From assembly GCF_022512515.1 (NCBI RefSeq), contig NZ_JAKWBK010000001.1, positions 3,720,001-3,784,000 on the forward strand: a stretch of 64,000 nt of DNA. Reading direction: 5' to 3'. The notes under the pieces are model-generated. The model had not been told where the DNA came from. It worked only from the letters and a program-made list of their open reading frames with translations, and ran no database searches. Origin of the DNA: Paraniabella hibiscisoli. GTDB taxonomy: Bacteria > Bacteroidota > Bacteroidia > Chitinophagales > Chitinophagaceae. This document shows positions 4,901 to 24,918 of this stretch, piece by piece; positions within the stretch are counted from its first letter, which is position 1; the number at the start of each line of letters is the position of its first letter. Position numbers and translations under genes: made by a program.

Positions 4901-4945
4901 CAGGTGGGCATACGGTCAAATCAACACGAACAAAATAAACAACTG

Positions 4946-6610
4946 ATGAAAGCTATTATACATACATTATCTATTGTAGTGCTGATGGCATTGGCAACTA
5001 CATCTTGTAAAAAGGAAGTGGAGAAGGTTCCTTTTGAAAGAAATGACCTCGACAATATTTTTGATGTACGCGATTCTAACGCCGACCAGGCTAAGAAATA
5101 TCTTTATGGAATTTATACGAATCTTCCCGACATATATGGTCGCTTCGATGGGGGCTTTTTAGAATCGGCTACTGATGATGGAGTCTCCATCAATTTTGAT
5201 AATGCTACCAGTTCGTTTCGCCAAAACTGGGTATCATCCAGAAATGTTTTTGAAGAAACGCTATGGGCTCAAAATTATGAAGGTATCCGACGGGCCAATG
5301 TGTTTCTGGCTAATATCGACAGAGTGCCTGTACGACCAGCTGTTTTAAAACCACAGATGAAGGCGGAGGCCCGTTTTTTAAGAGCTTACTTTTATTTTGA
5401 GTTATTGAAAAGATGGGGCGGCGTACCGGTAGTGAATGATGCTATCTATGAATTCGATTCTAAAATTGATATTCCCCGTAAAACAGCAACCGAAACCTTC
5501 GATTACATCATTGGTGAGTTGAATGCAGCAATGGTGGATGCACTTCCGTTAGCGCAGGCCGACGTTACATGGGGCATGGTCTCTCGTGGTGGTATCATGG
5601 CATTGAAATCAAGAGTGCTGCTTTATAAAGCAAGCCCCCTATTTAACACAGGTAATAGTGTTGAGTACTGGCGGGAGGCGGCAGCAGCTGCTAAACAGGT
5701 ATTAGATTCGAACTACTACAGTTTAGCCACTAACTATATTACTTTATTTAATTCGGTAAGACTAACCGGCACCGCCCGCGAAATAATTTTTAGCAAAATT
5801 AGAACTGCCGGTACAAGTATTGAAACGCTTAATGGTCCGGTAGGTTATGTACAAGGTTCCGGCGGATCTAATAACCCATCGCAGAATCTGGTAGATGCTT
5901 ATTTGATGAAGTCTACAGGAAAACGAATTAATGAGGTCGGGTCGGCTTATGATCCTGCTAATCCATATGCAAATAGGGACGACCGTTTTGCGGCCAGCAT
6001 TTTTTACAACGGTAAAAGCTGGTTCAACCGTGCGGTGCAAACCTACGAAGGAGGCCTGGATAACCCGCTGAATACGCAGAACAGAACCCGGACAGGTTAT
6101 TATCTGCGCAAGTTCATGGGCGCTTTTGAAACATCAGCTTCCATATCTAACCAAACACATAATCATATTCTTTTCCGGCTGGGTGAAGTAATGCTGAATT
6201 ATGCTGAAGCTGAAAACGAATTAAACGGTCCTGGCGCAACCAGTTCCCCGTATATCAGCAACTGATCAATATACGCAAAGAGCAGGTGTTGCTGCCGGCA
6301 CAAACGCTTTATATGGATTGCGGCTACCGCAACAAAAGAAGAGATGCGTGATATTATCAGGAATGAAAGACGTATAGAATTAGCATTTGAAGAGCACAGG
6401 TTTTGGGATATACGAAGATGGAAGATAGCGGAAATTGTGATGAATCAACCGGTGAGAGGTATGAGGATCATTAACGGCACGCCATTAACTTATACAGTAT
6501 TTGATGTAGAACAATCCACGTTCGATGCATCGAAAATGTATTTCTATCCTATACCTTTTTCGGAGATACAGCGCAATCCTTCATTAACCCAAAATCCTAA
6601 TTGGAACTAA
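4946..6610 (+). CDS. SusD-type glycan-binding lipoprotein (partner of SusC 1), frameshifted
   Basis: Surface lipoprotein forming the lid of the preceding SusC; about 555 residues after repair. The start at 4946 gives a lipoprotein signal ending in LATTSC, with the Cys at residue 18. SusD hallmarks: EARFLRAYFYFELLKRWGGVP in the first third, and NERRIELAFEEHRFWDIRR in the C-terminal third. Three separate single-base deletions cluster at about 6250, 6285 and 6316 (CCCC, AAA and G contexts); restoring them joins the TPR-like N-terminal part to the C-terminal part at 6344-6610. It follows SusC 1 by 45 bases, ends 17 bases before SusC 2, and is clearly related to the SusD at 58104. Confidence 0.9.
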
Positions 6611-6627
6611 AATTACAATCCAATATT

Positions 6628-9600
6628 ATGAGAAATATTTTTCTGTTGCTGTTTCTATTTTTTCTGAATATGGCTAGCGCACAAAATACGAAAACCATAA
6701 ATGGTCGCACTGTAAACCAGGATGGGGCGCCCGTAATTTATGCTACCATCAAAATTGCAGGGTCTGGATCTAAACAAGTGCTGTCCTCTGAAGATGGTTC
6801 CTTTGCACTGGAAGTGGGTAATGGCGACATACTGGAAGTGAGCTCGGTAGGTTATAATCCTACAAAAGTTACCATTAAGGCCGACTCCAGCTATTATCTG
6901 ATCCGGCTACAGTCCAACAATACCGAAATGGGCGAAGTAGTGGTGACCGGTTTTCAGAAACAAAGGAAGCTTACCGTTACCGGCGCTATCAGTACCGTTA
7001 GCGGATCAGAGTTGGCGCAAAGCCCTTCGGCCAGCTTTCAGAATGCGCTGGTGGGTCGTATGCCGGGAATATTTCAACAACAAACTACGGGGCAACCGGG
7101 AAGAGATGCGGCCAATGTATTCATCAGGGGCGTTAGTACCTATGCTACAACCGGGGGCATTAATACCCCGCTGGTTATTGTAGATAATATGGAGTTTGAT
7201 TATTCAAAACTTAGCCAGATAGATGTAAACGAGCTGGAGAGCTTTTCGATTTTAAAGGATGCTGCCAGCACCGCGGTATATGGTATAAGGGGTGCCAATG
7301 GCGTTATCGTAATTACTACCAAGCGTGGTAAAGAAAGTAAGCCTGTGATTAATGTTACAGTGAATAATGGTATTCAATCACCCACTTTTTGAGAAAGCCT
7401 TTAGGCTCTGCAGATGCGCTGTCACTAATTAGAGAGCAACTTATTCAGCAGGGGGCCAATGCAGATGTAGAAGAGGGCGGATTGTATTCGCAGGCGTCTA
7501 TTGATAGTTTCCGGTATAGTGCGAATCGTTATAAATATCAAGTGTGAACTGGTACGATGAGTTGATTAGGAAATATGCCGCTCAAAACAACCAGAACATC
7601 GATATGTCGGGCGGTAACCGCATCATGCGTTACTTTTTACCTTATCGCATTGGTTTCAGGATGGTATATTGACCGAAGTGCCGAAAAGCGAGCCTTTTAA
7701 TAATAACTATTATTTAAGAAGATTCAATTTACGTACCAACCTCGATTTTACCGTAACCAAAACCCTGACAGTAAAAACAGACCTGAGGGCTAACTTCAGC
7801 GAGATCAACGAACCTAATTTGCCCGATGTAATGACTGGCGGGGCCTGGCCCATGTGGAGGCGTATTACTAGTGGTGTATTAACTCCATGGTTATATCCCG
7901 TAAATAATCCTGATGGTAGCTACGGAGGGAGGATCGGTAACTATAGCCTGAATCCTAAAGGAATACTGGAGTATGCCGGCTATAGCAGGGAGTTTAATAA
8001 CGATTTTAATATTAATATTACCGGTAACCAGAAATTAGGTTTTATAACCAACGGTCTTGAGATAAGCGGAGCCTATTCATTTGCACAAAATACCGGCTTC
8101 ACCAGGAGCTTGACCCGGCCAAGGTTTCCTACCTACATCTACAATGAAGATGGATCTTATACCCCGGTGTTCAGCGATTTGACCCGACTGGCTCAGCTAA
8201 CTAGGTCTGCAGGTATCACACGGCCTGTTCGAAGAACAAATAAACAATTACAGCTGTCCTATAACCGAACCTTTGCTTCCTTACATAATGTATCAGCTAA
8301 TGTGGTGGGTATGGAAGTAATTACCAGGACGATTAACGGCACTTCGGGCCAGCCTAACAGAACAGAGGTATACAAAGGTATAAACGGGCAATTTATCTAC
8401 ACCTATGATAATAAATATATAGTGGGGTATACCGCATCTTACAGTGGAACAGATAAATTTAAATCTGCACAGAAGTTTGGCTATTTTCCGGCATATTCCG
8501 CAGGGTGGATTCTTTCCGAAGAGGGCTTTTTCAAAGATCATGTAAAGTTCATTAATTTGTTTAAGATCCGCGGTTCTTATGGTACCACCGCACCGATAAT
8601 ATTGCGGCAACCGATTACCTGTATGTGGATCGCTATTCAAGATCAACCAGTTCCTATTTATTTGGTGAAGTGCCCAGTGGTATAGCAACTATTTCACCCG
8701 CCTCCATTGCCAATGAAACCATTACTTGGGAAAAGAAACGCGCTTATAATATAGGAGCAGATATAAAACTGTTCAATAATAAGGTAGATATTGTGGTAGA
8801 CAGATTTGACGAATTGCGTTACGATATCTTATCTACCCGCGCAACTGTTCCCACATTTGCATCTATCGAATTAACGCCTACCAATATCGGCCGCGTATCC
8901 AATAAGGGCTGGGAGTTTGAGTTAAAGTATAAAGATATGGTGGGCAGTAACCTTAGCTATTTTGTGGGTGGCAACCTGTCTATTGCGAAAAACACAATCG
9001 TCTTCAGAGATGAGCCTTACAATTTCAGAAATCCTTTAAATATGACCACAGGAAATCCGGTAGGTCAGATATTTGGCTACAAGGCATTGGGCTTTTTCAA
9101 AGCCAGGAGGAAATTGATAACGGTCCCAAAGATTTCAGGAGCAATTTAAAGCCAGGTGATCTAAAGTATGCTGATATGAATGGTGATGGTGTTATTAACG
9201 ACCAGGATATTGTGCCTATTGGTTTGCCGGGTGTGCCTCCTTACACTTTTGGTATCTCGGCAGGCTTTAGCTACAAAGGATTTGATCTTTCAGTATTGTT
9301 CCAGGGCGCTACGGTAGCAACCTGGCTGCCAATACCATGCTGCAGATTGGTAATGTAAATGGCCTCCCGCAAGAAATACATCAGCAGCGGTGGACCCCTG
9401 AAACTGCGACTACGGCAGAACTACCCAGGTTGGGCGGACCCAATTGGGATATATCATCTTTTTGGCTTAGAGATGCGAGTTACCTGAGGTTTAAAAACTT
9501 TGAATTAGGCTATACACTTAAAAGTAAATTCTTAAATAAAGCTGGTATTAAAGCCTTCCGCATTTTCGGAAATGGCCAAAACCTGTTAACGTGGTATAAG

Positions 9601-9711
9601 CTAAAAATTTATGATGTAGACCCGGAATCGCAAAATGATAATACGGTTGCCGCCTACTCCAATTATCCGCAGATGAAAGTGATCAACCTTGGTTTACGGG
9701 CCACATTTTAA
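6628..9711 (+). CDS. SusC-type TonB-dependent transporter (full form), multiply frameshifted
   Basis: Second SusC of the cassette, about 1029 residues after repair. The start at 6628 gives a signal peptide ending MASAQ. Next comes the carboxypeptidase-regulatory-like domain (about residues 27-110), a TonB-box-like MGEVVVTGF segment, the plug (NTPLVIVDNMEF and SILKDAASTAVYGIRGANG) and the barrel. Six single-base losses are inferred, near 7392 (T run), 7540, 7645, 8600, 9105 and 9320; each time the correct reading resumes one base earlier. A calcium-loop-like MNGDGVINDQD occurs at about 9175-9210. The number of breaks is what error-rich sequence produces; a decayed gene would also show substitutions at conserved sites, which I do not see. 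Confidence 0.88.
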
Positions 9712-9749
9712 AATTCAGACCCCGGTTATTTAAAATAAAAAACAAGCTG

Positions 9750-11494
9750 ATGAAAGCAAAATATATACTACTGGCAGTACCTGTTTTGGTTAGTCTTTTG
9801 ATAGGCTCATGCAGGAAAGATTCGGAGAGCAGTCTCTTTGATGTAAACCCGGATGATATTCCATATAATGAACAAAAAGTTTTTGCGGATAGTATCCAGA
9901 CAATGGAGTTTGTTACCTCTATTTATAGAAATCTTTCCTATAACTACTTTTTAGACAATGCAGAACATACTGGCGGTGGCTACTGGAGCTTTGCTGATAT
10001 TACGGATGATGCAGAGAACAGGTGGAGTGGTAATGCCCAGATAGCGCCCATGTTTAATCTAAACACTTTTCCTTCTGAGTCTGGCTGGTCGCGTTTCAAC
10101 AATGCATGGACCATGGGGTATAGAAATATACGTTGGTGTAATATCTTTTGAAGAATAACGAACGTGTGCCTATCTCGGCACCTGTGAAGAGCCGTTTGAT
10201 AGGCGAAATTAAATTCTTAAGGGCTTATTATTATCTGCATCTGTTTAGGTTGTATAGTGGCATTCCTTTGGTGGGCGATAGTGTGTATGCACTTACAGAT
10301 CCGATAAAAGCAACCCGTGCAACGTTTGAAGAAACAGTTAATTATCTTAGCGATGAACTGGAGGGAGCGGCCGTTGCGCTGCCATTAAAGCACCAGGCCA
10401 GTGATTTTGGAAGGCCTACAAAGGGAGCTGCATTAGCATTGAAATCTAAACTGCTTTTGTATGCGGCAAGTCAGCTGTTTAATGGCAATAATATAGCAAC
10501 CGATCCTGCTGTGGCGCCATTGGTTGGGTATACGAATTCAGATCCTCAGCGCTGGAAAAAAGCGGCCGACGCCGCAAAAGCTGTAATCGATCTGGGGCAA
10601 TATACGCTGTTACAGGGGAATCCTGCAATTACCTCACAGCATGGATTATATCTTGCAACAACGCAGAGAGTAAACGATGAGCTGATATTTTCTATTCTTC
10701 CAACCTCAGGCAGGGTTACTGAAAACAGGTTGCTTCCTCCAAGCAGGGGCGGGCAATACTACTCATTTCCTTCGCATGCTTTGGTTGATGCGTTTGATAT
10801 GAGTAATGGAAAACCGATTGCGGATCCGCAATCCGGCTATAGCGAGACAAATCCGTTTGTAAATCGTGATCCAAGGTTTTATATTACCATTTTGTACCAG
10901 GGCGCTTTGTGGCTCAACACCAACCTTACTACGTCTTCGGCAATCAATTTTGCGGTAAATTCTACAACCGGCGATGTTTTCGGCACTTCTACAAGAACCG
11001 GTTTTTTATTCAGAAAGCTCTGTAATGAAGGTGCCACAGGCGGTGGTGGACTTTCTACCAATGCAGGGCTAATCGTAAGCAGGTACGCGGAGATTTTACT
11101 GAACTATGCCGAGGCTTTGAACGAATTTCAGGGGCCTGGCCCGGAAGTATACCAGGCTGTTGAAGCAATACGTCAACGTGCAGGCCTGAACCCCTACACA
11201 CTACCGGCTTCTTTGAGTAAGGATCAGATGCGGGATATTATCCGAAATGAAAGGAGGGTGGAGCTGGCTCTTGAAGAAGCGCATCGTTTTTTTGATATTA
11301 AAAGGTGGAAAATTGCTGAAGATGTTGATAAAGGACCATTGGTAGGAAGACGATATGCAACTCCGGCTTCAACTGGTGAAAGGGTAACTGCCGAAACCCG
11401 CGTGTTTGTAGCGCCTAAAATGTATAATTTCCCGATACCGTTAACAGAAGTAAATAAAGCGGGAGGAGCTATCCTTCAAAATCCGGGATGGTAG
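9750..11494 (+). CDS. SusD-type glycan-binding lipoprotein (partner of SusC 2), frameshifted
   Basis: About 581 residues after repair. Lipoprotein signal MKAKYILLAVPVLVSLLIGSC with the Cys at residue 21. SusD hallmarks are IKFLRAYYYLHLFRLYSGIP, ALKSKLLLYAAS and IIRNERRVELALEEAHRFFDIKRW. The frame breaks at about 10147 in a TTTT run before TTGAAGAATAAC; adding one T gives NIFLKNNERVP without a gap. It lies 38 bases after SusC 2. It resembles the SusD at 62938 more than the SusD at 4946, so it is the second-type partner in a two-pair cassette. An 18-bp palindrome lies 3 bases after its stop. Confidence 0.9.
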
Positions 11495-11497
11495 GTT

Positions 11498-11515
11498 ATT
11501 GAACAATTGTTCAAT
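11498..11515. promoter_or_regulatory. Perfect 18-bp palindrome after SusD 2
   Basis: ATTGAACAATTGTTCAAT reads identically on both strands. It lies between the SusD stop at 11494 and the small secreted protein at 11595. It has no loop, so it looks more like a protein-binding site than a terminator. Function unknown. Confidence 0.4.
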
Positions 11516-11594
11516 CCTATTCAATTTCCTGCTGCATCCGGAAGATCGATCTTTTAATAAAAATTATTCTATTTAAATTTTTAAATATTAAGTT

Positions 11595-11960
11595 ATGAAA
11601 AAAGTATTCGTTGTTGTTTCGTCAATGCTTGTTTTATGCCTGCTGTATAGTTATACTCCTAAGGCAAAGGCTTTCCCATGCGATCATACTATTCCGGCCA
11701 CGTTTTATTGTGGAACAGGGGATCAGCTTAAGTTAGTGTTTGATGATGTATCAAATCCTGCTACAGGCAATGTACATATTTATGACATTGATAATAATTA
11801 TATAGGTGATCCGCATATTGACCTCATTCCAACAACTCCCGGTAGCGTCAACATAGAATTTCAGTTAATAGATGAGAACGGACCAGATTATCTTGGAGAG
11901 ATTTATGGACTGCAATGTCAGGGGTATAGCTATGCTTCGTCTTATGTATCATGCTACTAA
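11595..11960 (+). CDS. Small secreted cysteine-containing protein of unknown function
   Basis: A 121-residue protein with a clear signal peptide (residues 1-26, ending PKAKA). The mature part has four Cys: one in FPCDHT, one in FYCGTG, one in LQCQGY and one at the penultimate residue, which would allow two disulfides in the periplasm or outside the cell. I do not recognise the family. It is rich in Asp and Tyr and looks like a small beta-sandwich. Intact, 100 bases after the SusD 2 stop, and followed by a 281-base gap before the GH88 array, so it may be expressed with the SusCD operon or alone. Confidence 0.6.
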   Translation: MKKVFVVVSSMLVLCLLYSYTPKAKAFPCDHTIPATFYCGTGDQLKLVFDDVSNPATGNVHIYDIDNNYIGDPHIDLIPTTPGSVNIEFQLIDENGPDYLGEIYGLQCQGYSYASSYVSCY

Positions 11961-12241
11961 TGGTCACAGAATAATCCAATAAAATAATGCGATAAACAAC
12001 ATAGCGATCATTATAAGCTCGGTTTGCAGTTTGGAACTGTCTAAAAGATGATTTAAAATAGTTGAATTGTCTTGTAAGGTTTTTTGCGGCTGAGATAAAA
12101 TTGAGTGATGAAAGTGTGGAATTAAAATGATACTGTCAGAGGGTAATGGCGAAGGCTATGAATGTCTGAATAAGAAGATAATTCCTGGAAATAATGGAAT
12201 AGTAAATTGATACTGTAAATTAATATTTGTAGCTAAGAAAG

Positions 12242-13433
12242 ATGCGAAAGTTTTTAATAGGTTTATATACTTTATGGTGCGGTACCGGAACATTAGTGGC
12301 ACAACAACCGGGAAATGTGAATATGCGAGAGTTGATACAGGACAACTTTGCTTTTGCCGACTCGCAATACCAGTATATGATGAAACAGGTTGCCCCGGAC
12401 AAAATGCCACAGTCTTACGACGAGAAAAATAAGAAATCAATTGCTTACCAGCGTACCTGGTGGTGTACCGGTTTTTACCCCGGAGCTCTTTGGTATATTT
12501 TTGAGCAGACCGGTAACCCTGTCATAAAAAAGAAGCGGAAAGAGCATTAAAAGTAATTGAACCGAATAAAACCTATACCGGCAATCATGACCTGGGCTTT
12601 ATGATGTACTGTAGCTTCGGCAATGCTTATCGGATAACAAAGAACGAGTCCTATAAAGAAATTATTATTCAATCCGCGGCCGCGCTTGCAAGCCGTTACA
12701 GGCCCTCGGCGAAAGTGATCCAATCCTGGAACACCAACCAGTATTTTAAAGGTCCGGTAATAATAGATAATATGATGAACCTGGAGCTGTTGTACTGGAC
12801 AAGCCTGAATGGGGAGATAAAAAGTATAAGGACATAGCTATTGCCCACTCTAATACTACATTGAAACATCATTTCAGACCTGATTTCAGTTCTTACCATG
12901 TAATAGACTACAATATGCAAACAGGGGATGTGCTTCGCAAAGCCACCTGGCAGGGAGCTGCCGATTGTTCTGCCTGGTCCCGCGGCCAGGGTTGGGGTTT
13001 ATACGGTTATGTGATGATGTATCGTTTTTCTAAGGATAAACGATACCTGGACCATGCAAGAAAAGTAGCAGGTTTTATACTCAATCATCCCAACCTGCCC
13101 AAAGATAAAATACCATACTGGGATTTTGACGCGCCGTTGATACCACTGGCTAAACGCGATGCCTCCGCTGGTGCTATCACTGCATCTGCATTGCTTGAAT
13201 TGGGACAATACACCGTTGGTAAAGAGAAAGCGACTTATATTGAAAATGCTAAGGATATAATTCTTGCTTTATCCGGTGAGAAGTATAAAGCTAAATCTGG
13301 CGAAAATGGCGGATTTCTTTTAAAACATAGTACCGGAGCTTTGCCGCTGAACTCTGAAATTGATGTGCCGTTAATCTATGCCGATTATTACTTTCTCGAA
13401 GCGTTAAAACGTTATAAAGATTGGTATTTATAA
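12242..13433 (+). CDS. GH88 unsaturated glucuronyl hydrolase, copy A (frameshifted)
   Basis: Exported enzyme predicted to remove the 4,5-unsaturated uronic acid from the non-reducing end of oligosaccharides made by polysaccharide lyases. About 397 residues after repair; signal peptide ends TLVAQ. GH88 hallmarks are the NHDLGFM and IDNMMNLELL motifs carrying the two catalytic Asp, the SAWSRGQGWGLYGY segment and KRDASAG. Two single-base deletions: one A in the run at 12525-12531 and one G in the GGGG run near 12811-12814; copy C shows the intact reading at both places. The N-terminal 35 residues differ from copies B and C, while residues from FAFADS onward match them. First of three tandem copies. 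Confidence 0.85.
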
Positions 13434-14123
13434 TCCGGCATATTGATACTCAACCTCATTTACTGATTGATGACGGGCCAGCAATGATGATGATGCTTGG
13501 GTTGTGAATAAGACAGTTAGAATTTTGTTGCGAACCTGTTATGTATAGGTTTCCAATAAGTAGTCCGTTGTTTGGATAATAGTATATAGCAGCTTCAGCA
13601 AGCTACCTCGCAAGAGGAAGAAGAGCTTTGGGATTGGACTATGTAGGTGAATTGTGTAATACGTAAGCTGATCAAACTGTTAACGGTGTAGACCAGAGTG
13701 ATAGGTTTGGAGCTATTGTCCACCAGTATGATTAGAGTTCGAATTAATAGGTTTATTGGCGATTGGTAAAATTTTTGTATTGAAAATCAATTGTTTATTT
13801 ATGATGTTTACAATTGCCCCTTTTTATTTAGGATAGTACCCTCACAACTTTGAGGTGAGGGTCTATATTCGGAGTTAAATATAATTTGTTAATGTCTTTC
13901 GCTGATTTTTTGAAACTGTTGTTTCCTCCATTATATACAGGTATATGGACAATTTTTAAAATCACTGCAGGACTGGCAAGAGGAGTGCTTTTTAAACAGT
14001 TTTAAGAGTTTTATAATGATAAAGAATTTTTTAGGGTTACTAATAATAATACAAGTATACGTTCCCCATGCCTTGGCCCAAACTACAGGTAAAACGGATA
14101 TGGCAGTGCTTATTAAAGAAAAT
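12347..14123 (+). repeat. Tandem direct repeat, unit 1 (1777 bp)
   Basis: Begins at TTTGCTTTTGCCGACTCG inside GH88 copy A and ends at the same point inside copy B. It comprises the core and 3' part of GH88 A, the 582-bp spacer, and the 5' end of GH88 B. The next unit matches it except for homopolymer-length differences (positions near 12530, 13817 and 14030). No terminal inverted repeats and no transposase, so it is a segmental tandem duplication and not an insertion sequence. Confidence 0.9.
13434..14015. other. Spacer between GH88 A and B, repeated between B and C
   Basis: Non-coding as far as I can see: no open frame of useful length on either strand. It is repeated almost exactly at 15210-15792. 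It contains an 8-bp inverted repeat, ACCCTCAC at 13838-13845 with GTGAGGGT at 13855-13862 (second copy 15615-15622 and 15632-15639), in an AT-rich setting about 150 bases before the following start codon. That position suits a leader hairpin or operator, but no T-run follows. The promoter for copies B and C presumably lies here. Confidence 0.5.
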
Positions 14124-15209
14124 TTTGCTTTTGCCGACTCGCAATACCAGTATATGATGAAACAGGTTGCCCCGGACAAAATGCCACAGTCTTACGACGA
14201 GAAAAATAAGAAATCAATTGCTTACCAGCGTACCTGGTGGTGTACCGGTTTTTACCCCGGAGCTCTTTGGTATATTTTTGAGCAGACCGGTAACCCTGTC
14301 ATAAAAAAAAGCGGAAAGAGCATTAAAAGTAATTGAACCGAATAAAACCTATACCGGCAATCATGACCTGGGCTTTATGATGTACTGTAGCTTCGGCAAT
14401 GCTTATCGGATAACAAAGAACGAGTCCTATAAAGAAATTATTATTCAATCCGCGGCCGCGCTTGCAAGCCGTTACAGGCCCTCGGCGAAAGTGATCCAAT
14501 CCTGGAACACCAACCAGTATTTTAAAGGTCCGGTAATAATAGATAATATGATGAACCTGGAGCTGTTGTACTGGACAAGCCTGAATGGGGAGATAAAAAG
14601 TATAAGGACATAGCTATTGCCCACTCTAATACTACATTGAAACATCATTTCAGACCTGATTTCAGTTCTTACCATGTAATAGACTACAATATGCAAACAG
14701 GGGATGTGCTTCGCAAAGCCACCTGGCAGGGAGCTGCCGATTGTTCTGCCTGGTCCCGCGGCCAGGGTTGGGGTTTATACGGTTATGTGATGATGTATCG
14801 TTTTTCTAAGGATAAACGATACCTGGACCATGCAAGAAAAGTAGCAGGTTTTATACTCAATCATCCCAACCTGCCCAAAGATAAAATACCATACTGGGAT
14901 TTTGACGCGCCGTTGATACCACTGGCTAAACGCGATGCCTCCGCTGGTGCTATCACTGCATCTGCATTGCTTGAATTGGGACAATACACCGTTGGTAAAG
15001 AGAAAGCGACTTATATTGAAAATGCTAAGGATATAATTCTTGCTTTATCCGGTGAGAAGTATAAAGCTAAATCTGGCGAAAATGGCGGATTTCTTTTAAA
15101 ACATAGTACCGGAGCTTTGCCGCTGAACTCTGAAATTGATGTGCCGTTAATCTATGCCGATTATTACTTTCTCGAAGCGTTAAAACGTTATAAAGATTGG
15201 TATTTATAA
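14016..15209 (+). CDS. GH88 unsaturated glucuronyl hydrolase, copy B (chimeric, frameshifted)
   Basis: Same enzyme family and motifs as copy A; 398 residues after repair. Its N-terminus (MIKNFLGLLIIIQVYVPHAL) is that of copy C, but its C-terminal third, including DAPLIPLAKRDASAG, is that of copy A. It is therefore a hybrid with crossovers somewhere in the shared core. Two breaks: a two-base loss in the A-rich stretch at about 14301-14310 and one G lost near 14585; copy C carries the intact reading. If the repeat is real, this is a working third enzyme with A-type C-terminal specificity behind a C-type signal; if it is an assembly loop, it does not exist. Confidence 0.75.
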
Positions 15210-15899
15210 TCCGGCATATTGATACTCAACCTCATTTACTGATTGATGACGGGCCAGCAATGATGATGATGCTTGGGTTGTGAATAAGACAGTTAGAATT
15301 TTGTTGCGAACCTGTTATGTATAGGTTTCCAATAAGTAGTCCGTTGTTTGGATAATAGTATATAGCAGCTTCAGCAAGCTACCTCGCAAGAGGAAGAAGA
15401 GCTTTGGGATTGGACTATGTAGGTGAATTGTGTAATACGTAAGCTGATCAAACTGTTAACGGTGTAGACCAGAGTGATAGGTTTGGAGCTATTGTCCACC
15501 AGTATGATTAGAGTTCGAATTAATAGGTTTATTGGCGATTGGTAAAATTTTTGTATTGAAAATCAATTGTTTATTTATGATGTTTACAATTGCCCCCTTT
15601 TTATTTAGGATAGTACCCTCACAACTTTGAGGTGAGGGTCTATATTCGGAGTTAAATATAATTTGTTAATGTCTTTCGCTGATTTTTTGAAACTGTTGTT
15701 TCCTCCATTATATACAGGTATATGGACAATTTTTAAAATCACTGCAGGACTGGCAAGAGGAGTGCTTTTTAAACAGTTTTAAGAGTTTTATAATGATAAA
15801 GAATTTTTAGGGTTACTAATAATAATACAAGTATACGTTCCCCATGCCTTGGCCCAAACTACAGGTAAAACGGATATGGCAGTGCTTATTAAAGAAAAT
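14124..15899 (+). repeat. Tandem direct repeat, unit 2 (1776 bp)
   Basis: Second full unit, from the core of GH88 B to the same point in GH88 C. Compared with unit 1 I find only run-length differences: A/GA at 14301-14310, C4 to C5 near 15594, and T6 to T5 near 15804. Such near-perfect identity over 1.78 kb means the duplication is very recent or artefactual. Confidence 0.9.
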
Positions 15900-16988
15900 T
15901 TTGCTTTTGCCGACTCGCAATACCAGTATATGATGAAACAGGTTGCCCCGGACAAAATGCCACAGTCTTACGACGAGAAAAATAAGAAATCAATTGCTTA
16001 CCAGCGTACCTGGTGGTGTACCGGTTTTTACCCCGGAGCTCTTTGGTATATTTTTGAGCAGACCGGTAACCCTGTCATAAAAAAAGAAGCGGAAAGAGCA
16101 TTAAAAGTAATTGAACCGAATAAAACCTATACCGGCAATCATGACCTGGGCTTTATGATGTACTGTAGCTTCGGCAATGCTTATCGGATAACAAAGAACG
16201 AGTCCTATAAAGAAATTATTATTCAATCCGCGGCCGCGCTTGCAAGCCGTTACAGGCCCTCGGCGAAAGTGATCCAATCCTGGAACACCAACCAGTATTT
16301 TAAAGGTCCGGTAATAATAGATAATATGATGAACCTGGAGCTGTTGTACTGGACAAGCCTGAATGGGGGAGATAAAAAGTATAAGGACATAGCTATTGCC
16401 CACTCTAATACTACATTGAAACATCATTTCAGACCTGATTTCAGTTCTTACCATGTAATAGACTACAATATGCAAACAGGGGATGTGCTTCGCAAAGCCA
16501 CCTGGCAGGGAGCTGCCGATTGTTCTGCCTGGTCCCGCGGCCAGGGTTGGGGTTTATACGGTTATGTGATGATGTATCGTTTTTCTAAGGATAAACGATA
16601 CCTGGACCATGCAAGAAAAGTAGCAGGTTTTATACTCAATCATCCCAACCTGCCCAAAGATAAAATACCATACTGGGATTTTGACGCGCCTTATATCCCC
16701 CATGCAAAAAGGGATGCTTCAGCGGCTGCTTTAATTGCTTCTGCGTTGCTGGAACTGGGACAATATACTAACGGATCTGAAAAGGAAAGCTATATCAGCA
16801 ATGCAAAAGATATGATTGTATCATTGTCAGGAGAAAAATATAAGGCGAAGCTGGGAGAAAACGGAGGTTTCCTGTTAAAGCATAGTACGGGCTCATTGCC
16901 TTCTAATTCAGAAGTAGATGTGCCGTTGATTTATGCTGATTATTATTATCTTGAAGCACTGAAGCGTTATAAAGACTGGTATTTGTAA
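15793..16988 (+). CDS. GH88 unsaturated glucuronyl hydrolase, copy C
   Basis: Best preserved copy: 398 residues, interrupted only by one missing T near 15804 (T5 where copy B has T6), so the start is placed at 15793 by analogy with copy B. The catalytic pair of the family is seen as Asp118 (NHDLGFM) and Asp177 (IDNMMNLELL); the 59-residue spacing fits the known pair Asp88/Asp149 of Bacillus unsaturated glucuronyl hydrolase. Other GH88 marks: WWCTGFYPG, CSAWSRGQGWGLYGY and KRDASAAA. The last third after DFDAP differs from copies A and B and agrees better with the GH88 at 44670. Followed 40 bases later by a GH29 gene, probably in the same transcript. Confidence 0.88.
15900..16690 (+). repeat. 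Third, partial copy of the tandem repeat (core only)
   Basis: 791 bases identical to the cores of GH88 A and B apart from run lengths. Identity stops abruptly after GACGCGCC at 16690: copies A and B continue GTTGATACC while copy C continues TTATATCCC. Confidence 0.88.
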
Positions 16989-17028
16989 TTGTTCCCTCAA
17001 TATTAAGCTCAACTAATAAAACATAAGG

Positions 17029-18524
17029 ATGAATAAAATCGTTAACAGAATTGCTGCTATACTGCTTTTAGCCGGCATTGGTATAGGGGTACAGGCCCAA
17101 TCATGGACGGGTCCCAAGGAAAAGCCAAAGAGCAGGATTGATTTGAAATATGGTCCTTTAAACCCAGGTAAACGGACCGATGCTGATATGCAGCGGTTCA
17201 GGGAATATGGCCTGGGGCAGTTTATACATTGGGGTGTTTATGCTATCGCCGGAGGCGAATGGAATGGCGTAAAAGCGCCCACCGCTTCGGAGTGGATAAG
17301 AGTATGGTCGGGCAATACCGCTCCGCAAAACTGGCAGCAAACCTATGATAATTTGTACAAGCAGTTTAATCCTAAAAGTTTTGACGCCCGATCATGGGCG
17401 CGCCAGGCAAAGCAAATGGGAGCCCGTTATATGATCATTACCACTAAACATCATGATGGATTTTGCCTGTGGCCGAGTAAATACACCAATTATACGATTG
17501 CCCAAACGCCTTACAAAAAAGATATTGTTAAGCAATTGGTAGATGCGTATACAGCTGAGGGCATTGATGTATATCTGTATTTTTCTATCATCGACTGGAA
17601 CAATAAGGACTACAGGAGCGCTTCACTCAAGACGGAAGATGAAAAACAAGCCTATAACCGGTTTTTAACTTTTACACGCAACCAGTTATTCGAGTTAATG
17701 GATAATTATCCGAAGATGAAAGGATTTTGGTTCGACGGTACATGGGATAAGGCATGGATCAATGCTTATGAGTGGACCTACCAACTGGAAAAGGATTTGC
17801 GTAACGCGCATCCTGGTCTAATTATCGGGAGCCGTTTTAGAAACGATGAGCATGGTAAACGACATTTTGATTCAAACGGCGACCTGCTGGGTGATTACGA
17901 GCAGGGGTGGGAGCGTAAGCTGCCGGCTCAGTACGAATGGCTGAATGGCAATGATTGGGATTGTGTAATGACCATACCACCTAATGGTTGGGGATATATA
18001 AAGATTGGTCGCAGTTTTATACCAAAACGGCCTATGATTTAATTGATATGTTGATGCATTCTGTATCCATGGGCGGCAATTTTGTATTGAATTTTGGCCC
18101 GGACGGAAACGGGCAAATGCATACAGGAGAAGATAAGTTGGCTAAAGAATTGGGTGATTGGATGAAGCTCAATAGCGAAGCTGTTTACGGAGTTACTCAT
18201 GCGGCATTAGAGCCCTCCAGCTATGGCTATTATACGCAAAAAGCAAATGCGTTATACCTGACTGTTTTTAATCGTCCGGTTAATAATCAAATCAGGTTAA
18301 AAATTCCAAGATCGGCAACCCAGGTGCCTGAGGCGGCAAGTCTATTGGCAAATAAAACATCTTTAAAAATGAAGTTCGTTGACATAGGTATCGATTTAGA
18401 TAAAAATGTTTATTTTGATATTACCCTTCCGGCAAGCTTTATGAGTAAAGATCCTTTTGTAATTAAAATAGATACCAAAACGGGGAAGATCAATGCCCGT
18501 GAGTTGGAAAAAGCCCATATGTAA
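17029..18524 (+). CDS. GH29 alpha-L-fucosidase 1 (frameshifted)
   Basis: Retaining exo-alpha-L-fucosidase, exported to the periplasm (signal peptide ends GVQAQ); 498 residues after repair. Family features in order: GQFIHWGVYA, the strand TTKHHDGFCLWPSKYTNY, FSIIDWN, and GFWFDGTWD, whose Asp236 is the predicted nucleophile; then SMGGNFVLNFGPDGNG at the end of the barrel and a short beta-sandwich tail. The frame breaks near 18000 in a run of A (ATATAAAGATTGG); one extra A restores GYIKDWSQFYTK. It sits 40 bases after GH88 C and 41 bases before a second GH29 of a different subgroup, suggesting that more than one fucosyl linkage is attacked. Confidence 0.9.
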
Positions 18525-18565
18525 TCAAGGTTTTAAGCCAGTTTTTTTATTATACTACCTTCAAA

Positions 18566-19974
18566 ATGATGCCGATGAAACAAATAAAATTACCTGTTGT
18601 AGCAGCTAAGATTGTATTAGCCTTGATGTTCTTTTTAGTTCAATATACCCTCATTGCACAACAGCCGGCCACACCAGCATGGGCAAAGGAAACCGCGTTG
18701 GCTAAAGAGAAGCGGATGCAATGGTGGGCCCACGATCGATTTGGCATGTTCATACACTGGGGATTATATGCGTTGCCCGCGCGCCATGAATGGATACAGA
18801 ACAGGGAGCGAATCACTCCGGAGAATTATAAGAAGTACTTTGATTATTTCAATCCTGATCTGTATGATCCTGTACAATGGGCCAAAGAAGCCAAAGCTGC
18901 CGGTATGAAATACGTAGTGCTCACCACCAAACATCACGAAGGTTTTTGTCTTTGGGACAGCAAGTTCACAGATTATAAAGTAACCAATACGCCTTATAAA
19001 AAGACCTGCTCAAATCTTTTGTAGAAGCTTTTCGTGCGGAAGGGATACATATTGGTTTCTACTATTCTTTAATTGACTGGCATCATCCTGACTTTGTTTA
19101 CGACGGTGGGCACCCTCCAACACCTGTATCCAGGGAAGAAAGAGAAAAGGCTAATAAAGGCCGGGATATGGCCCGTTACCAGGAGTATATGAAAAATCAG
19201 GTAACTGAACTGCTGACAAAATATGGTAAGATCGATCAGTTGTTTTTTGATTTTTCTTACGCCGGAAAAGGCCATAAAGAATGGGATTCTGAAAACCTGT
19301 TAAAGCTGGTTCGTAAGCTGCAGCCCGATATTATTGTAAACGACAGGCTGGATTTAAACGATACGCAATGGGGATGGGATTATAAAAACCCCGAGCAGTT
19401 TATGCCCAAAGAGTGGGTAAAAGTAAACGGGCAGAAAGTGCCCTGGGAAACCTGCCAGACTTTTTCGGGCTCATGGGGCTATTTCAGAGACGAGTACTCC
19501 TGGAAAAGCCCGGAGCAATTGGTGGTAATGCTGGCCGAAACGGTGAGCAAGGGTGGTAACTTACTGCTAAATGTGGGGCCAACGGCGCGTGGTAATTTTG
19601 ATGAGCGCGCCAGCGAAAGACTGGCTGCATTGGGAAAATGGATGAAGTATAATAGCCCCGCTATCTATGGCTGTACCGAAGCACCCGAAGCATTTAAAAA
19701 GCCGGCTAATTCGCTTTTAACCTACAATGCCGAAAGAAAGCGTCTGTATATTCATGTGTTGGAGTGGCCCTTTAAAACGCTATTGCTCGAAGGATATAAA
19801 GGACGGTTTAAATACGCGCAGTTATTACAGGATGGGTCGGAGATCAGGTTTTCTACAGTAACAAAAACAGGCGGACATACAACGGAAACATCCGGAGAGG
19901 ATGATGTAATGTTGCAATTGCCTGTACAAAAGCCCGACGCACTCGTGCCTGTTATCGAACTTATTTTGGAATAG
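18566..19974 (+). CDS. GH29 alpha-L-fucosidase 2 (frameshifted)
   Basis: Second fucosidase, about 469 residues after repair; signal peptide ends TLIAQ. GH29 features: RFGMFIHWGLYALPARHEW, TTKHHEGFCLWDSKFTDY, FYYSLIDWHHPDF, and QLFFDFSY with the predicted nucleophile Asp229; then SKGGNLLLNVGPTARG and a C-terminal beta domain. The frame breaks at about 19005 in AAAAAGACC, where one missing A turns KDLLKSF into a premature stop. ATG codons at 18566, 18569 and 18575 are all possible starts. It differs enough from fucosidase 1 (no WFDGTWD motif, different loops) to be a distinct specificity, not a duplicate. It is followed after 18 bases by GH20. Confidence 0.9.
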
Positions 19975-19992: not shown

Positions 19993-21547
19993 ATGAAGTT
20001 TAAATTGTTTTATGTTCTGTTGCTGACATTGTTTCAAATGGAAGCCAGTGCTCAAAATATTTGTCCTGTTATACCTCAGCCAGTGGCTGCCAGAGAATTG
20101 CCCGCCAGTTTTGTTTTGAATAAACACACGGAGTTGGTAGTGGAAGATGAATCATTACTGCCAGCAGCCCGTTATTTTCAACAGCAATTACTACAACAGC
20201 ACAAAATTGCTCTCAGCATCCAGGCAAAAGCAAGTGGGCCATCCATCAGGTTGTCGTTGTCGAAGAAACTGGCATCCAGCTCTTACAGGTTAGATATGAA
20301 CGCTCAGCAAATTCAAATTTCAGGCATTGATGAGCCTTCTGTTTTCTATGGTATCATTTCTTTACTGCAATTAACTTCACCAGTAAAACAGCGTTTGGGT
20401 AACCTGGCGCTTAAGTGCTGGAGTATTGAAGATCGTCCCGCTTATGGCTGGCGGGGTTTGATGCTGGACGAATCAAGGCATTTCTTTGGTACTGATAAAG
20501 TGAAATCCATTTTAAACTGGATGGCCTTTTATAAATTGAACCGCTTTCACTGGCACCTAACTGATGAGCCCGCCTGGCGTATTGAAATTAAAAATTATCC
20601 CAAGCTTGCATTGGTGGGTGGCATTGGTTCTTATACAAATCCGGATGTTCCCGCACAGTTTTATACCCAGGATCAAATTGCAGAAATAGTACGATACGCA
20701 GCAGAGCGGCATATAACGGTAATTCCTGAAATAGATATGCCAGGTCATGCTACGGCGGCTAATAATGCTTACCCCCAGTTTAGCGGAGGGGTAGTGATAA
20801 GCACCCGGAGTTTACTTTTCATCCGGGTAAAGAAGCTACTTATACCTACCTGACAGATATATTGAGAGAGGTAAATGCTTTATTTCCCTCGCGTATGTTA
20901 CACCTGGGGGAGATGAAGTGAGCTTTGGAAATGATAAATGGCTGGCTGACCCGGATGTGAAAAACCTGATGGCCCGTAAGCAGCTAAAGACCGTTCAGGA
21001 AGTAGAGCAGTATTTTATGCAGCGGATGGCAGACTCCGTGTACGCGATAAATGCAAAATTGCTGGCCTGGGATGAAGTAGCAGCTATGAATTTGCCTAAA
21101 AATAAAACCATTGTATTCTGGTGGCGACATGATCAGCCTCAACAGCTGCAAACAACTTTAAACAACTGTTATCAAACCGTGCTGTGCCCGCGCATTCCTT
21201 TTTATTTCGACTTCGTGCAGGATAGTACCCATACTGCGGGACGCAAGTGGAATAAGGCTTACAGCGGATTGAAGGATGTATACGATTTTAATGCTGCTAC
21301 TTTACCGGGAGTAAATAAAGGCAACCTGCAGCAGATCCTGGGCGTTCAGGCCAACGTATGGACCGAAACCATCGCAGATAATTACAGGCTCGATTATATG
21401 TTGTATCCACGGATAGCCGCATTGGCGGAAACAGCATGGTCTTCGACTGAGCAAAAGAACTATGCTTCCTTTGTTCAGAATTTAAAACAACATTTTTTAT
21501 TATACAATAATGAAAGGATCAACTATTTCAATCCTTTTAAAAAGTAA
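19993..21547 (+). CDS. GH20 beta-N-acetylhexosaminidase 1 (frameshifted)
   Basis: Removes terminal beta-GlcNAc/GalNAc by substrate-assisted catalysis in the periplasm; about 518 residues after repair. Signal peptide ends ASAQ; GH20b alpha/beta domain about residues 25-140; then the TIM barrel starting RPAYGWRGLMLDESRHFFG, with FHWHLTDEPAWRIEIK, VIPEIDMPGHATAA, and the catalytic pair Asp308-Glu309 in HLGGDEV. Two breaks, both in G runs: near 20787 (GGAGGGGTAG) and near 20906-20910 (CTGGGGGAGAT), the latter inside the catalytic motif. One G at each restores GGGSDKHPEF and GGDEV. The stop abuts the DUF2264 gene, so the genes are co-transcribed. Confidence 0.9.
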
Positions 21548-21556
21548 ATGTTCGAT

Positions 21557-22821
21557 ATGCAAAGAAGGAATTTTTTAAGATTATCATCATTATTAGGTTT
21601 AGCAGGCTCCATGCCTTTTACCAGTAACATAGCCGCACAAAAAGAAAACGCATCCTCTTTAGCAGCACCCGCCAATGACAGAGCCTATTGGGTTTCGCTT
21701 TTAGATAAGATAGCAACACCGGTATTGTTGAACATGAGTAAAGGTCAACTGCGAAAAAATATGCAGGTGGAGTATAGCGCTACATGGGACGGACGCAATA
21801 AGCAAGTGGCTTATATGGAAGCCTTTGGGCGTTTGATCGGCGGTATTGCTGCCTTCCTGGCCTTACCTGTTGACGGAACTGCTGAAGGTAAAGTACGTGC
21901 GCGATTATTAAAACAAACGCAGGAAAGTCTTGCTCATTCGGTAGATTCCCAAAGCCCGGATTATTTATTCTGGGGAGACGGAAAGACTACGCAGCCACTG
22001 GTAGATGCGGCACATATTGCCCAGGCTTTATTATACGCACCAGATGCACTGTGGAAGCCTTTGAGTGAAAAGACAAAGCAACAATTCATTCATGAGTTTA
22101 ATACTATTCGCCGTATTAAACCCTGGAACAATAACTGGGTGCTTTTTGCGGCCATGATCGAAACTTTTTTATTGAGTATTGGCCAACCCATTGATGAAGC
22201 GCGTATAGATAACGCTATTGATAAAATTAACAACTGGTATGTTGGAGATGGCTGGTATAATGACGGGGATCATTTTCATTTCGATCATTATAACGGGTAT
22301 GTGATCCACCCCATGCTGGTAGATGTGTTGCGGGTAAACGTTGCACATGGTCGTCGTACAGCAAAAGAATATGAGTCAGCATATAAAAGAATGCAACGAT
22401 ATGCTTCTTTCCAGGAACGTTATATTTCACCCGAGGGTACTTACCTGGTAGTTGGACGCTCTTCTACCTACAGAGTAGGCGCTTTTCAACCACTGGTTAA
22501 ATTAGCTTTAGAGCAAAAGCTACCTAAAGAAATTCAGCCGGCCCAGGTTCGTTGTGCGCTTACCAAAGTCATGAAGCGCATGTTCGTTCCCGCTACCTTT
22601 ACAAAAATGGATGGCTCACGCTAGGCCTCGTGGGAGATCAGCAAACAGATCTGGCAGATTATTATTCCAATACCGGAAGCATGTATGTAACTTCTCTGGT
22701 ATTTCTGTCATTGGGACTGCCTGCTACAGACTCCTTTTGGTCGGCTCCTTTTACTGAGTGGACCCAGTTAAAAGCATGGTCAGGCAAGCCGTTTCCAAAG
22801 GATTATGCTGTAGCTTACTAA
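21557..22821 (+). CDS. DUF2264-family exported protein, possibly a glucuronidase (frameshifted)
   Basis: About 421 residues after repair. I choose the start at 21557 because it begins with a twin-arginine signal (MQRRNFLRLSSLLGLAG); an ATG at 21548, directly after the GH20 stop, is the alternative. The body (YMEAFGRLIGGIAAFLALP, WNNNWVLFAAMIETFL, DGDHFHFDHYNGYVIHPML) matches the DUF2264 family, predicted as an (alpha/alpha)6 barrel. I recall that some relatives were described as exo-beta-glucuronidases (GH154), but I cannot confirm this one belongs there. One A is missing near 22607, giving a false stop before LGLVGDQQTDLADYYS. It lies between GH20 and an unknown gene, in the same orientation. 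Confidence 0.75.
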
Positions 22822-22875
22822 TCATTACAATCTTTATTTAGCTTTAATTGTTTTATAGAAAGTATTTTCTTGTTA

Positions 22876-22891
22876 TGTAAACTGTTTTACA
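22876..22891. promoter_or_regulatory. Inverted repeat TGTAAA-N4-TTTACA at the start of the unknown gene
   Basis: TGTAAA (22876-22881) and TTTACA (22886-22891) form a compact 16-bp dyad whose last base is the first base of the ATG at 22891. It may be an operator or a small start-codon hairpin. Confidence 0.35.
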
Positions 22892-23456
22892 TGCCGGCTG
22901 ACAACTCCGATATAGTTTTTAAAAAGGAACTGGTAAAAGCTTTAAATCAGTTAAAAGGAGATTGGGACAACCTGGAGGCCGCCGGCGTTATTCAACCTTT
23001 GCTGAGCGGGTACGATATGCCATCTTACATCATCGATTCCGGCATAATGGAAGAGCTGGGTATGATGGAGCGCAGGCATATTTATGTATCATTACAAAAA
23101 AATTATCGCCGGTAGAAACAAAAGATTACCGCATCAGTTTTCTTGCACAACCTAATGCGATATCCGGGGAGTTGATACCCTACCTGCAACTATTAGATCT
23201 TATCCTGCTTTTTCAACGGAGGGATGAGCCGGAGTACGGCCGCTTTATAACAGAATTAAAAAGGTTGATTAGTCGCTTAACCTACCATGAGCAAAAGCTG
23301 ATGATACAACTCGCGCGGAAGTACCCGGCAGCGGTAAGAGCTTGCCTTGGCTTTTTATTGGCAGGTATCAACCAGCTTACGCTATCTTCCAAAGCCCTGC
23401 AAACCCTGAATCCAGCTACGTTAAACCGGTATAAAAAAGAATACGCCTGGAGTTAA
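22891..23456 (+). CDS. Unknown protein between DUF2264 and amine oxidase (frameshifted)
   Basis: About 188 residues after adding one A to the run near 23097 (CAAAAAAATTATCG), which joins the N-terminal part (through HIYVSLQKK) to LSPVETKDYRISF. ATG at 22891 is preferred to the TTG at 22870 in the same frame. No signal peptide. The C-terminal half is helical and basic (FITELKRLISRLTYHEQKLMI). I do not recognise the family. It is separated by 69 bases from DUF2264 and 106 bases from the amine oxidase, all in one direction. That both halves stay open over 560 bases with one repair supports it as a real gene. Confidence 0.5.
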
Positions 23457-23534
23457 TAAGTTGCTTTCTCGTATACAACCGGTAATAGGTATGGGAGTAT
23501 CACTAATAATAGTGAGGATAAGACTGGGGAACTT

Positions 23535-23555
23535 GTTTCATTTTTGTAATGAAAC
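23535..23555 (+). promoter_or_regulatory. Hairpin just upstream of the amine oxidase start
   Basis: GTTTCAT (23535-23541) and ATGAAAC (23549-23555) form a 7-bp stem with a 7-base loop ending 7 bases before the ATG at 23563. It could be an operator or could limit translation initiation. Confidence 0.35.
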
Positions 23556-23562
23556 TTTTACC

Positions 23563-24918
23563 ATGATCTCACGTCGAAACTTTGTCAGAAAAACTGCTTT
23601 ACTCTCAGCAGGGCTTATTGTACAACACCAGGTAGGTACTATCGCCACAATCAGGAAAAGAACTGATGTCGTTTGTATCGGCGCCGGGTTGGCAGGCCTG
23701 TCAGCGGCTTATGCTCTGAAGCAAAAAGGTTATAAGGTGACCGTGCTGGAGTGCAGGGATAGAATTGGCGGACGGGTTTTTTCTCATCAAATGTCTGAGC
23801 AGTTGGTGATCGAACTGGGTGGCGAATGGGTAGGTAATTCTCATAGCCGTATACAGGAACTATGTAACCAGTTTAAACTGGACTTGATCAATAACCAAAT
23901 GGATACCCATCTGATTTATAAGGGTGATTATGCACCGGCGGGAACCTGGGGTTTTAGTGAGCCCTGGAGTAAGAAATGGGAACAGTTGCTGAAAGGTTAT
24001 GCTGACTTAACCGATAAAGATAAACAGCATTTAGATCAATATGATTGGTGGCGTTACCTGGTGAACAATGGCTGTGAGGGAAGGGACCTTGAAATAAGGG
24101 AATTGCTGGATAGCACGGATTTCGGCGAAAGTATTAGGCAGGTATCAGCCTTCTCTGCTCTTGCAGAATATGCGGAAAGCAGTGAGAAGAATGAAATGGA
24201 CTTGAAAATAAAAGGCGGCAATCAACAATTGGCCATGAGGCTGGCAGATGCTATTGGCCGGGAAAATATTATATTGAATTGTACCGTAACCCAGGTACAG
24301 CAAACTGACCAGGTAACAATTACCTGTACCAATGGAAAACAATTTACCGCAGACAAACTGATCTGCACGATCCCTGCTTTTGCTTTATCAAAAATTAACT
24401 GGAGCCCTGCATTGCCTGCTGAACAATTACAGGCCATCAACACACTACAATATGCCCGTATCAACAAACACGCGGTATTATTTGGGCAAAGGTTCTGGAA
24501 AGAAGATGGTTTTGATATGGTTACCGACCAGTTACCCCATTATTTCTATCATGCTACCAGGGGGCAGGCCGGCCCGGAAGGGGTGCTGATCTCCTATAGC
24601 ATAGGTGACAAAGCTGCCGTAGTAGCTAATCAGAGCAATGCTGTCAACGCCCGCGTAATTGCAGATACACTGCAGCCCTGTGTAAAGGATGCCGCATCAC
24701 TAATGCGGAAACAGGTAAACTATTACTGGGGTAATGATGACATATCCAAAGGTGCTTATGCTTTGTACGGACCAGGTCAATGGTTTACTTTGCGTCCGGT
24801 ACTCAGTCGCCCTTTTAAACATACCCATTTTGCCGGGGAGCATTTGGCCGATTGGCAGGGGTTTATGGAGGGCGCTATCAACACCGGTGAAGAAGCCGCT
24901 TCACAAATCATAGGTTAG
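23563..24918 (+). CDS. Tat-exported flavin-dependent amine oxidase
   Basis: A 451-residue intact FAD enzyme of the monoamine-oxidase family, which oxidises an amine to an imine with release of hydrogen peroxide. The start at 23563 gives a twin-arginine signal (MISRRNFVRKTALLSAG), used for proteins exported already folded with cofactor. The FAD-binding Rossmann motif CIGAGLAGLSAAYALKQKG begins at about residue 38, followed by LECRDRIGGRVFSH and the C-terminal FAD contact FAGEHLADWQGFMEGAINTG. The substrate is unknown; free amino sugars or polyamines are guesses. Its place between two GH20 enzymes in a PUL is unusual. It is one of few long genes here without a frame break. Confidence 0.85.
   Translation: MISRRNFVRKTALLSAGLIVQHQVGTIATIRKRTDVVCIGAGLAGLSAAYALKQKGYKVTVLECRDRIGGRVFSHQMSEQLVIELGGEWVGNSHSRIQELCNQFKLDLINNQMDTHLIYKGDYAPAGTWGFSEPWSKKWEQLLKGYADLTDKDKQHLDQYDWWRYLVNNGCEGRDLEIRELLDSTDFGESIRQVSAFSALAEYAESSEKNEMDLKIKGGNQQLAMRLADAIGRENIILNCTVTQVQQTDQVTITCTNGKQFTADKLICTIPAFALSKINWSPALPAEQLQAINTLQYARINKHAVLFGQRFWKEDGFDMVTDQLPHYFYHATRGQAGPEGVLISYSIGDKAAVVANQSNAVNARVIADTLQPCVKDAASLMRKQVNYYWGNDDISKGAYALYGPGQWFTLRPVLSRPFKHTHFAGEHLADWQGFMEGAINTGEEAASQIIG

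Follow-up and report, generated by a model that had tools for sequence, protein, structure and literature searches.

A tandem group of three GH88 genes in Paraniabella hibiscisoli with a mosaic middle copy, probably shaped by recombination between neighbours

The window, i.e., the whole analysed stretch of 64,000 nucleotides from Paraniabella hibiscisoli, holds a tandem array of three GH88 genes within a cluster of SusC/SusD-type, GH88, fucosidase-type and GH20 genes. All array features lie on the forward strand. Gene A (12242-13433) consists of a signal-peptide-like 5' end of its own (12242-12346), a C-type core (12347-13143) and a 3' end of its own (about 13144-13433). It is followed by a first spacer copy (13434-14015), gene B (14016-15209), a second spacer copy located by alignment (15210-15792), gene C (15793-16988) and, as downstream flank, a fucosidase-type gene at 17029. 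Gene C has an open frame of 379 aa from TTG 15849 to 16988; compared with B, a difference of one T puts its ATG at 15793 out of frame. As assembled, the frames of the other two genes are interrupted: A differs from C at an A run (12526-12531) and a G run (12811-12814), and B is broken between an A run (14303-14310) and a G run (14587-14590).

Based on a direct-repeat search and self-alignment, we recovered the tandem repeat described in an earlier note on this DNA. Unit 1 (12347-14123) comprises the core, the A 3' end, the spacer and a C-type 5' end. Unit 2 (14124-15899) and a third copy of the core (15900-16690), which stops where C ceases to match A and B, were placed by alignment. The direct repeats are spaced by 1776-1779 bases. 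Aligning 12347-14122 with 14124-15899 provides 1774 matches, no substitution and 4 gap columns; of these, one merely reflects end trimming. This leaves three real differences between unit 1 and unit 2: a G lost between A runs at 12532/14309, a C at 13817/15593 and a T at 14027/15804. That is, the statement that the units differ only in homopolymer lengths is nearly right, the exception being the G lost beside A runs. Small indels are common in the assembly of this genome, which can explain both the unit differences and the broken frames. The lack of substitutions between the units supports the proposed recency of the expansion; its gene-dosage role can only be inferred. Within 20 sampled 20-kb stretches plus the window, the only other near-exact tandem duplication of at least 500 bases is one array of 165-base units.

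Compared with C (from 15793), B (from 14016) shows no substitution and three indel events (4 gap columns) up to 14911/16690, with the first B/C substitution at 14912/16691. The alignment thereby bears out that B, as assembled, combines the 5' end of C and the shared core with the 3' end of A, i.e., one end from either neighbour. Every repeat unit would yield one complete gene including a start of its own.

With regard to the enzyme family, gene C scores 32.5 bits against Pfam PF07470 (cut-off 26.6), while no NCBIfam match was found for it. At E 0.001, gene C matches 8 solved sequences, each of which carries the name of a GH88, unsaturated glucuronyl or chondroitin-disaccharide hydrolase, or of the putative gbs1889 protein. 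Profile match and names together support the GH88 assignment that had been made from the letters alone. Among the GH88 unsaturated glucuronyl hydrolases 3wiw, 1vd5 and 2ahf, gene C was aligned to the first two (residues 30-376 to PDB 3wiw, E 6.7e-103; residues 35-374 to PDB 1vd5, E 4.3e-55), with both catalytic aspartates present. Here, Asp99 (16143-16145) and Asp158 (16320-16322) align to Asp88 and Asp149 of 1vd5, for which passages of PMC4528949 describe an active-site role in UGL. The active site would be identical in all three genes, while their N-terminal export-like sequences and their C-terminal 98-residue parts would each come in two kinds. In contrast, a mosaic tandem layout does not belong to the characteristics of the enzyme family but was found at this locus.

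We compared A and C separately for core and ends. The core shows no substitution over 789 aligned columns (99.7% identity), whereas the 5' ends are 58.7% identical over 46 columns, where the alignment is uncertain, and the 3' ends 70.1% over 298 columns. All 110 A/C substitutions fall within the 348 columns (of 1137 in total) outside the core, which corresponds to a log10 P of about -62.6 if they were evenly spread; the core tract was picked after seeing the data, which is immaterial at that size. Thus, the split into an identical core and diverged ends is not chance, and the central block is far more alike between these neighbours than their ends. In the 3' ends, 18/98 residues differ with a dN of 0.13, while dS was too high for calculation, such that we take A to have been a constrained, working gene. 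We saw no sign of unusual conservation where the tract ends: relatives match C in 28-35 of 40 bases on the left and 32-35 of 40 on the right, i.e., about the core's own average.

Next to the own genome (G000), we studied 16 further genomes (congeners) of its genus, which is inferred to be Niabella. Four of the 16 hold one near full-length GH88 gene of this type followed by fucosidase-type sequence as found after C. In one of these genomes, G004, the SusD, GH88 and fucosidase-type genes adjoin where G000 carries the array. The core of C is 82.8% identical to G004, and for the 3' ends we find 82.9% for C-G004, 70.5% for A-G004 and 70.1% for A-C. Judged by its sequence, C is the counterpart of the congeners' gene. 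Given that the 3' end of A is at about 70% to C while C is at about 83% to G004, A would thus be an older paralogue or a xenolog. Among the relative loci compared, the best protein matches of A are the congeners (85.1% G001, 84.0% G004). With regard to viral carriage of the gene, 2 stretches in viral contigs matched a pattern, neither of which encoded a relative.

Trees were computed for 19 rows, namely A, C, four congeners and 13 of the 80 relative loci. The core tree joins A and C with 100% support. In the 3'-end tree, A is placed among non-Niabella rows (support 79-81), next to L047 (support 79), with weak inner branches (33-72). Constraining the 3'-end tree to have A and C as sisters comes at a cost of 15.9 log units and is rejected by the AU test (p 0.018) but not by KH (0.0675) and SH (0.0873). 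The AU test does not reject a placement of A inside the Niabella group (p 0.353 and 0.298).

The surroundings of the genes were screened as well. For the spacer part, no match was found in the own genome outside the array (40/48 candidates scored), and neither the spacer nor the DNA upstream of A has a match at E 0.01 among the relative loci compared that would point to an origin. The spacer holds a hairpin at about 13838-13862 (z -2.76) without a T run after it. Rfam reports nothing at gathering score over the window, nor at E 0.1 over 13400-14100. A tRNA as insertion site was rejected since none is present in the window. A scan of 11500-17100 provided 29 promoter-like sites vs. 18.1 expected and 9 terminator-like sites vs. 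4.5 expected; as the repeat makes such sites occur in twos and threes, we draw no inference from these counts. A Bacteroidota promoter-element pattern yields 5 matches in L011 vs. 4.83 expected. Between SusD (10148-11494) and gene A, an ORF of 121 aa (11595-11960, forward strand) lies within an interval absent from G004; it has no Pfam or NCBIfam match and is present only in the own genome among the 17 genomes of the genus compared.

We favour, as the probable origin, that this tandem GH88 group was shaped by RecA-type homologous recombination between neighbours in the polysaccharide-utilisation cluster. An older duplicate or acquired GH88 gene (A) would have come to lie upstream of C. Gene conversion would then have copied C's middle with both catalytic aspartates into A. 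The middle 0.79 kb of A is, on the sequence evidence, now of C type, and we hold it highly probable that a core conversion of A by C took place. The direction from C to A follows from the core being at C's own distance from the congener; if A's core had been copied into C instead, it should be about 70% identical to G004, such that we rejected this option. Finally, an unequal exchange between sister chromosomes inside the identical tract would have duplicated the segment of core, A 3' end, spacer and C 5' end, resulting in gene B and the second spacer. Equivalently, a crossover at the right-hand boundary may have come before, with B subsequently converting A. That the third gene copy is physically there is likely, at a clearly lower level than the conversion.

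The earlier note had explained B as the product of unequal crossing over between A and C, without any further event. In outline this stands, since it predicts exactly the observed order of C 5' end and A 3' end, but it is not sufficient: unequal crossing over alone leaves the A and C middles diverged, whereas these are identical between diverged ends. A second event is needed, i.e., C's middle copied into A or an equivalent, and unless the identical cores are an assembly error, they contradict the plain model, which we thus consider very improbable. An assembly loop has a modest chance of being correct. Here, the true locus would consist of A and C sharing the identical 791-base core, and the assembler would have circled core-spacer-core twice, inventing B. 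Apart from indels, all of B is also found in A or C; having no junction of its own, B is the sequence expected if an assembler passed twice through a two-gene locus, and the genome shows many small indels at 83.33% completeness by the tool's figure. On the other hand, the 5 contigs suggest long reads, for which an array of about 4.7 kb would be short, and sampling about 400 kb in addition to the window revealed no other such tandem duplicate. Furthermore, owing to their three indels, the units are not exact copies of a single graph edge, although such indels could stem from polishing. As the middle copy is without sequence of its own, copy number in such loops is untrustworthy from an assembly.

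Two further explanations, both rather unlikely, are compatible with recombination between neighbours as the origin. The array may expand and contract such that cells differ in gene number and the assembly depicts one state. Long perfect direct repeats allow for RecA-dependent gain and loss, as in the accordion model described in passages of PMC7360770, but the view is limited to one assembly of the species. Alternatively, a selected gene-dosage expansion could raise GH88 activity in the cluster, in line with the substitution-free units that would each complete a whole gene. A neutral transient duplication would look alike, however, and a second GH88 gene is found in the flanks of only 2/84 relative loci, both only about 45% identical. 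Quite speculatively, and improbable at present, the locus might be an active accordion in which repeated exchange via the catalytic core preserves a single active site and shuffles export sequences and C-terminal parts, such that cells of one population carry different GH88 sets.

Recombination between related genes that lie side by side ordinarily leads to tandem copies with a traded middle, and mosaic tandem paralogues of such layout are already known in Staphylococcus. Passages of PMC7360770 report a RecA-linked variation in copy number for the csa1 tandem array of Staphylococcus aureus. The tandem lipoprotein genes lpl of the same species share, as far as later papers describe them, a centre of about 130 bases compared to 791 identical bases here. 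Both lpl and csa1 are lipoprotein gene clusters, whereas our locus comprises three metabolic-enzyme genes in one assembly. The esaG and tipC immunity clusters of Firmicutes likewise feature mosaic genes with copy gain and loss via homology blocks between tandem paralogues, according to passages of PMC9484751; their support comes from many-strain comparison, while our array is known from one genome. Within literature titles and abstract openings, we found no report on mosaic tandem GH88 genes. If the three genes are real, the locus would provide a clear snapshot of two recombination steps, the conversion of a core and an unequal exchange, acting on a carbohydrate enzyme instead of a surface or immunity gene.

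The tandem repeat described in the earlier note was confirmed. Two units (12347-14123 and 14124-15899), each comprising a GH88 core, the 3' end of gene A (12242-13433), a spacer and a 5' end of the gene C type, differ by three single-base indels and 0 substitutions, and a third core copy follows unit 2 as far as 16690. A repeat scan of the window (minimum length 60 bases) returned the array alone plus one 62% match to it (45250-45549), located within a further GH88 gene (44670-45869) that adjoins GH97, GH2 and glucuronyl-esterase-like genes. The host genome (G000, in which the window is C1:3720001-3784000; 6.1 Mb, 5 contigs, completeness 83.33, contamination 4.2) holds 20 GH88-profile matches at E 0.001 or better, several being pieces of one gene; 18 are over the cut-off.

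SusC/SusD-type genes lie upstream of the array. SusD is followed by a 121-aa ORF (11595-11960), gene A, a spacer (13434-14015), gene B (14016-15209), the second spacer copy (15210-15792) and gene C (15793-16988). Downstream, we find two fucosidase-family genes, a GH20 gene and a DUF2264 gene and, beyond the latter, an amine-oxidoreductase-family gene and a second GH20 gene. The 121-aa ORF has a signal-peptide-like start and contains cysteines; it is without match in Pfam and NCBIfam and, among 17 genomes of the genus, was found in its own only. Each spacer copy carries a hairpin (13838-13862, 15615-15639; first copy folded) with no T run after it. The two fucosidase-family genes (17029-19974) stand side by side, both with a broken frame. 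The window scan shows no repeat of at least 60 bases linking them and hence no sign of a recent core exchange between the two.

Next, we compared the locus with its relatives. Gene C as DNA query matched 22 of 39 genomes including its own, i.e., 21 of the 38 others. With 10 candidates scored per genome, near full-length matches were found only in the congeners G001-G004, one each (76, 74, 81 and 83% identity, respectively). A query composed of the second half of A and the spacer gave matches at 1e-30 in 5 of all 16 congeners, namely the same four and, over 262 bases, G010; the spacer part was matched by none of the 16. G004 is collinear with the window across SusD, a single GH88 gene and a fucosidase-type gene, at 84-85% identity on either side; about 45 bases, judged by eye, lie between its SusD stop and the first ATG. 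G003 is collinear for GH88 and downstream over the compared extent, while its upstream SusD part is not alike. G001 and G002 show no upstream match; their fucosidase-type matches are on the same strand, about 2.3 kb after GH88 in G001 and near GH88 but weak (64-74%) in G002. We further fetched 84 loci, i.e., the four congener loci and eighty from relatives (two places are present twice and some loci end at contig ends). A second GH88 gene occurs within the fetched flanks of 2/84, each only about 45% identical, such that none of them shows a recent tandem copy.

With regard to the donor, all 110 substitutions between A and C (1137 aligned columns) fall outside a 789-column tract; two in the core (columns 213 and 216) are left of the tract proper. 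Core identity is 99.7% for A-C, 82.8% for C-G004 and 81.8% for C-G003. For the 3' segment (298 columns), A-C identity is 70.1%, that of C to G004 and G003 is 82.9% and 79.5%, and that of A is 70.5% and 68.7%. These values indicate that the core belongs to the line of C and the 3' end of A to an older one; the 5' ends, at 46 columns, do not suffice to judge the donor. In trees of 19 rows (A, C, the four congeners and 13 loci taken from the 80 of the relatives), A and C are joined with 100% support for the core. For the 3' end, A is placed among non-Niabella rows (support 79-81; inner branches weak, 33-72). Forcing A together with C costs 15.9 log units (p-values: AU 0.018, KH 0.0675, SH 0.0873), and a position of A elsewhere inside Niabella is not rejected.

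Unequal crossing over, the origin proposed earlier for B, accounts for part of this pattern: an exchange between C and A yields B but leaves the cores of A and C unchanged. Since these cores are identical while the ends are not, the pattern also requires a conversion step, in which the C core would have been copied into A or, given a prior crossover, the B core. Both event orders predict one and the same sequence and are indistinguishable. The tract ends are not at clearly better-conserved places compared with the rest of the core.

We also evaluated whether gene B is physically there, given that it has no junction of its own. Compared with G004, positions 7000-11508 show 9 one-base gaps in the host genome and one gap (two bases) in G004; 15873-18523 show 4 vs. 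5 and the more distant 21504-24000 9 vs. 8. The resulting rate of about 1.5-3.6 gaps per kb in the host genome, which does not exceed that of G004 everywhere, is enough to explain the three inter-unit indels and the frame interruptions in A and B. The SusC, GH20 and fucosidase-type neighbours are likewise broken into overlapping or adjacent ORFs, which we infer to be sequencing errors. A general loop artefact of the assembly is mildly opposed by self-comparison of 20 stretches of 20 kb from the same contig plus the window, where no further duplication resembling the GH88 array was found. The one other high-identity array found there has 165-base units (stretch L126); L136 holds two pairs, of 179 bases (93.9%) and 143 bases (79.7%), and L135 one pair of 584 bases (75.9%). 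We consider the third copy probably present. The L126 array (3817-5138; G000:C1:1403817-1405670 with partial matches to 5670) comprises about eight units, each 164-165 bases long, that are 97-99% alike. Its start falls within the 3' end of a tRNA-Met gene (3767-3841), and the tRNA tail thus seems to be repeated in every unit. Throughout the window, small indels split many genes, and ORF-based annotation of this genome will undercount intact ones.

Gene C is assigned to GH88 by sequence match, its nearest solved protein being 3wiw, a Pedobacter heparinus enzyme specific for heparin disaccharide. Both catalytic aspartates are inside the shared core, such that A, B and C would all carry one predicted active site. 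The 3' ends of A and C differ in 18/98 residues, and two N-terminal export-like sequences were noted by eye, one in A and the other in B and C. The csa1 system is described as changing tandem-gene copy number via RecA (PMC7360770), and the layout reported for the Staphylococcus lpl and esaG clusters (PMC9484751) matches the GH88 array. The array adds a case in a metabolic enzyme and does not constitute a new kind of system.
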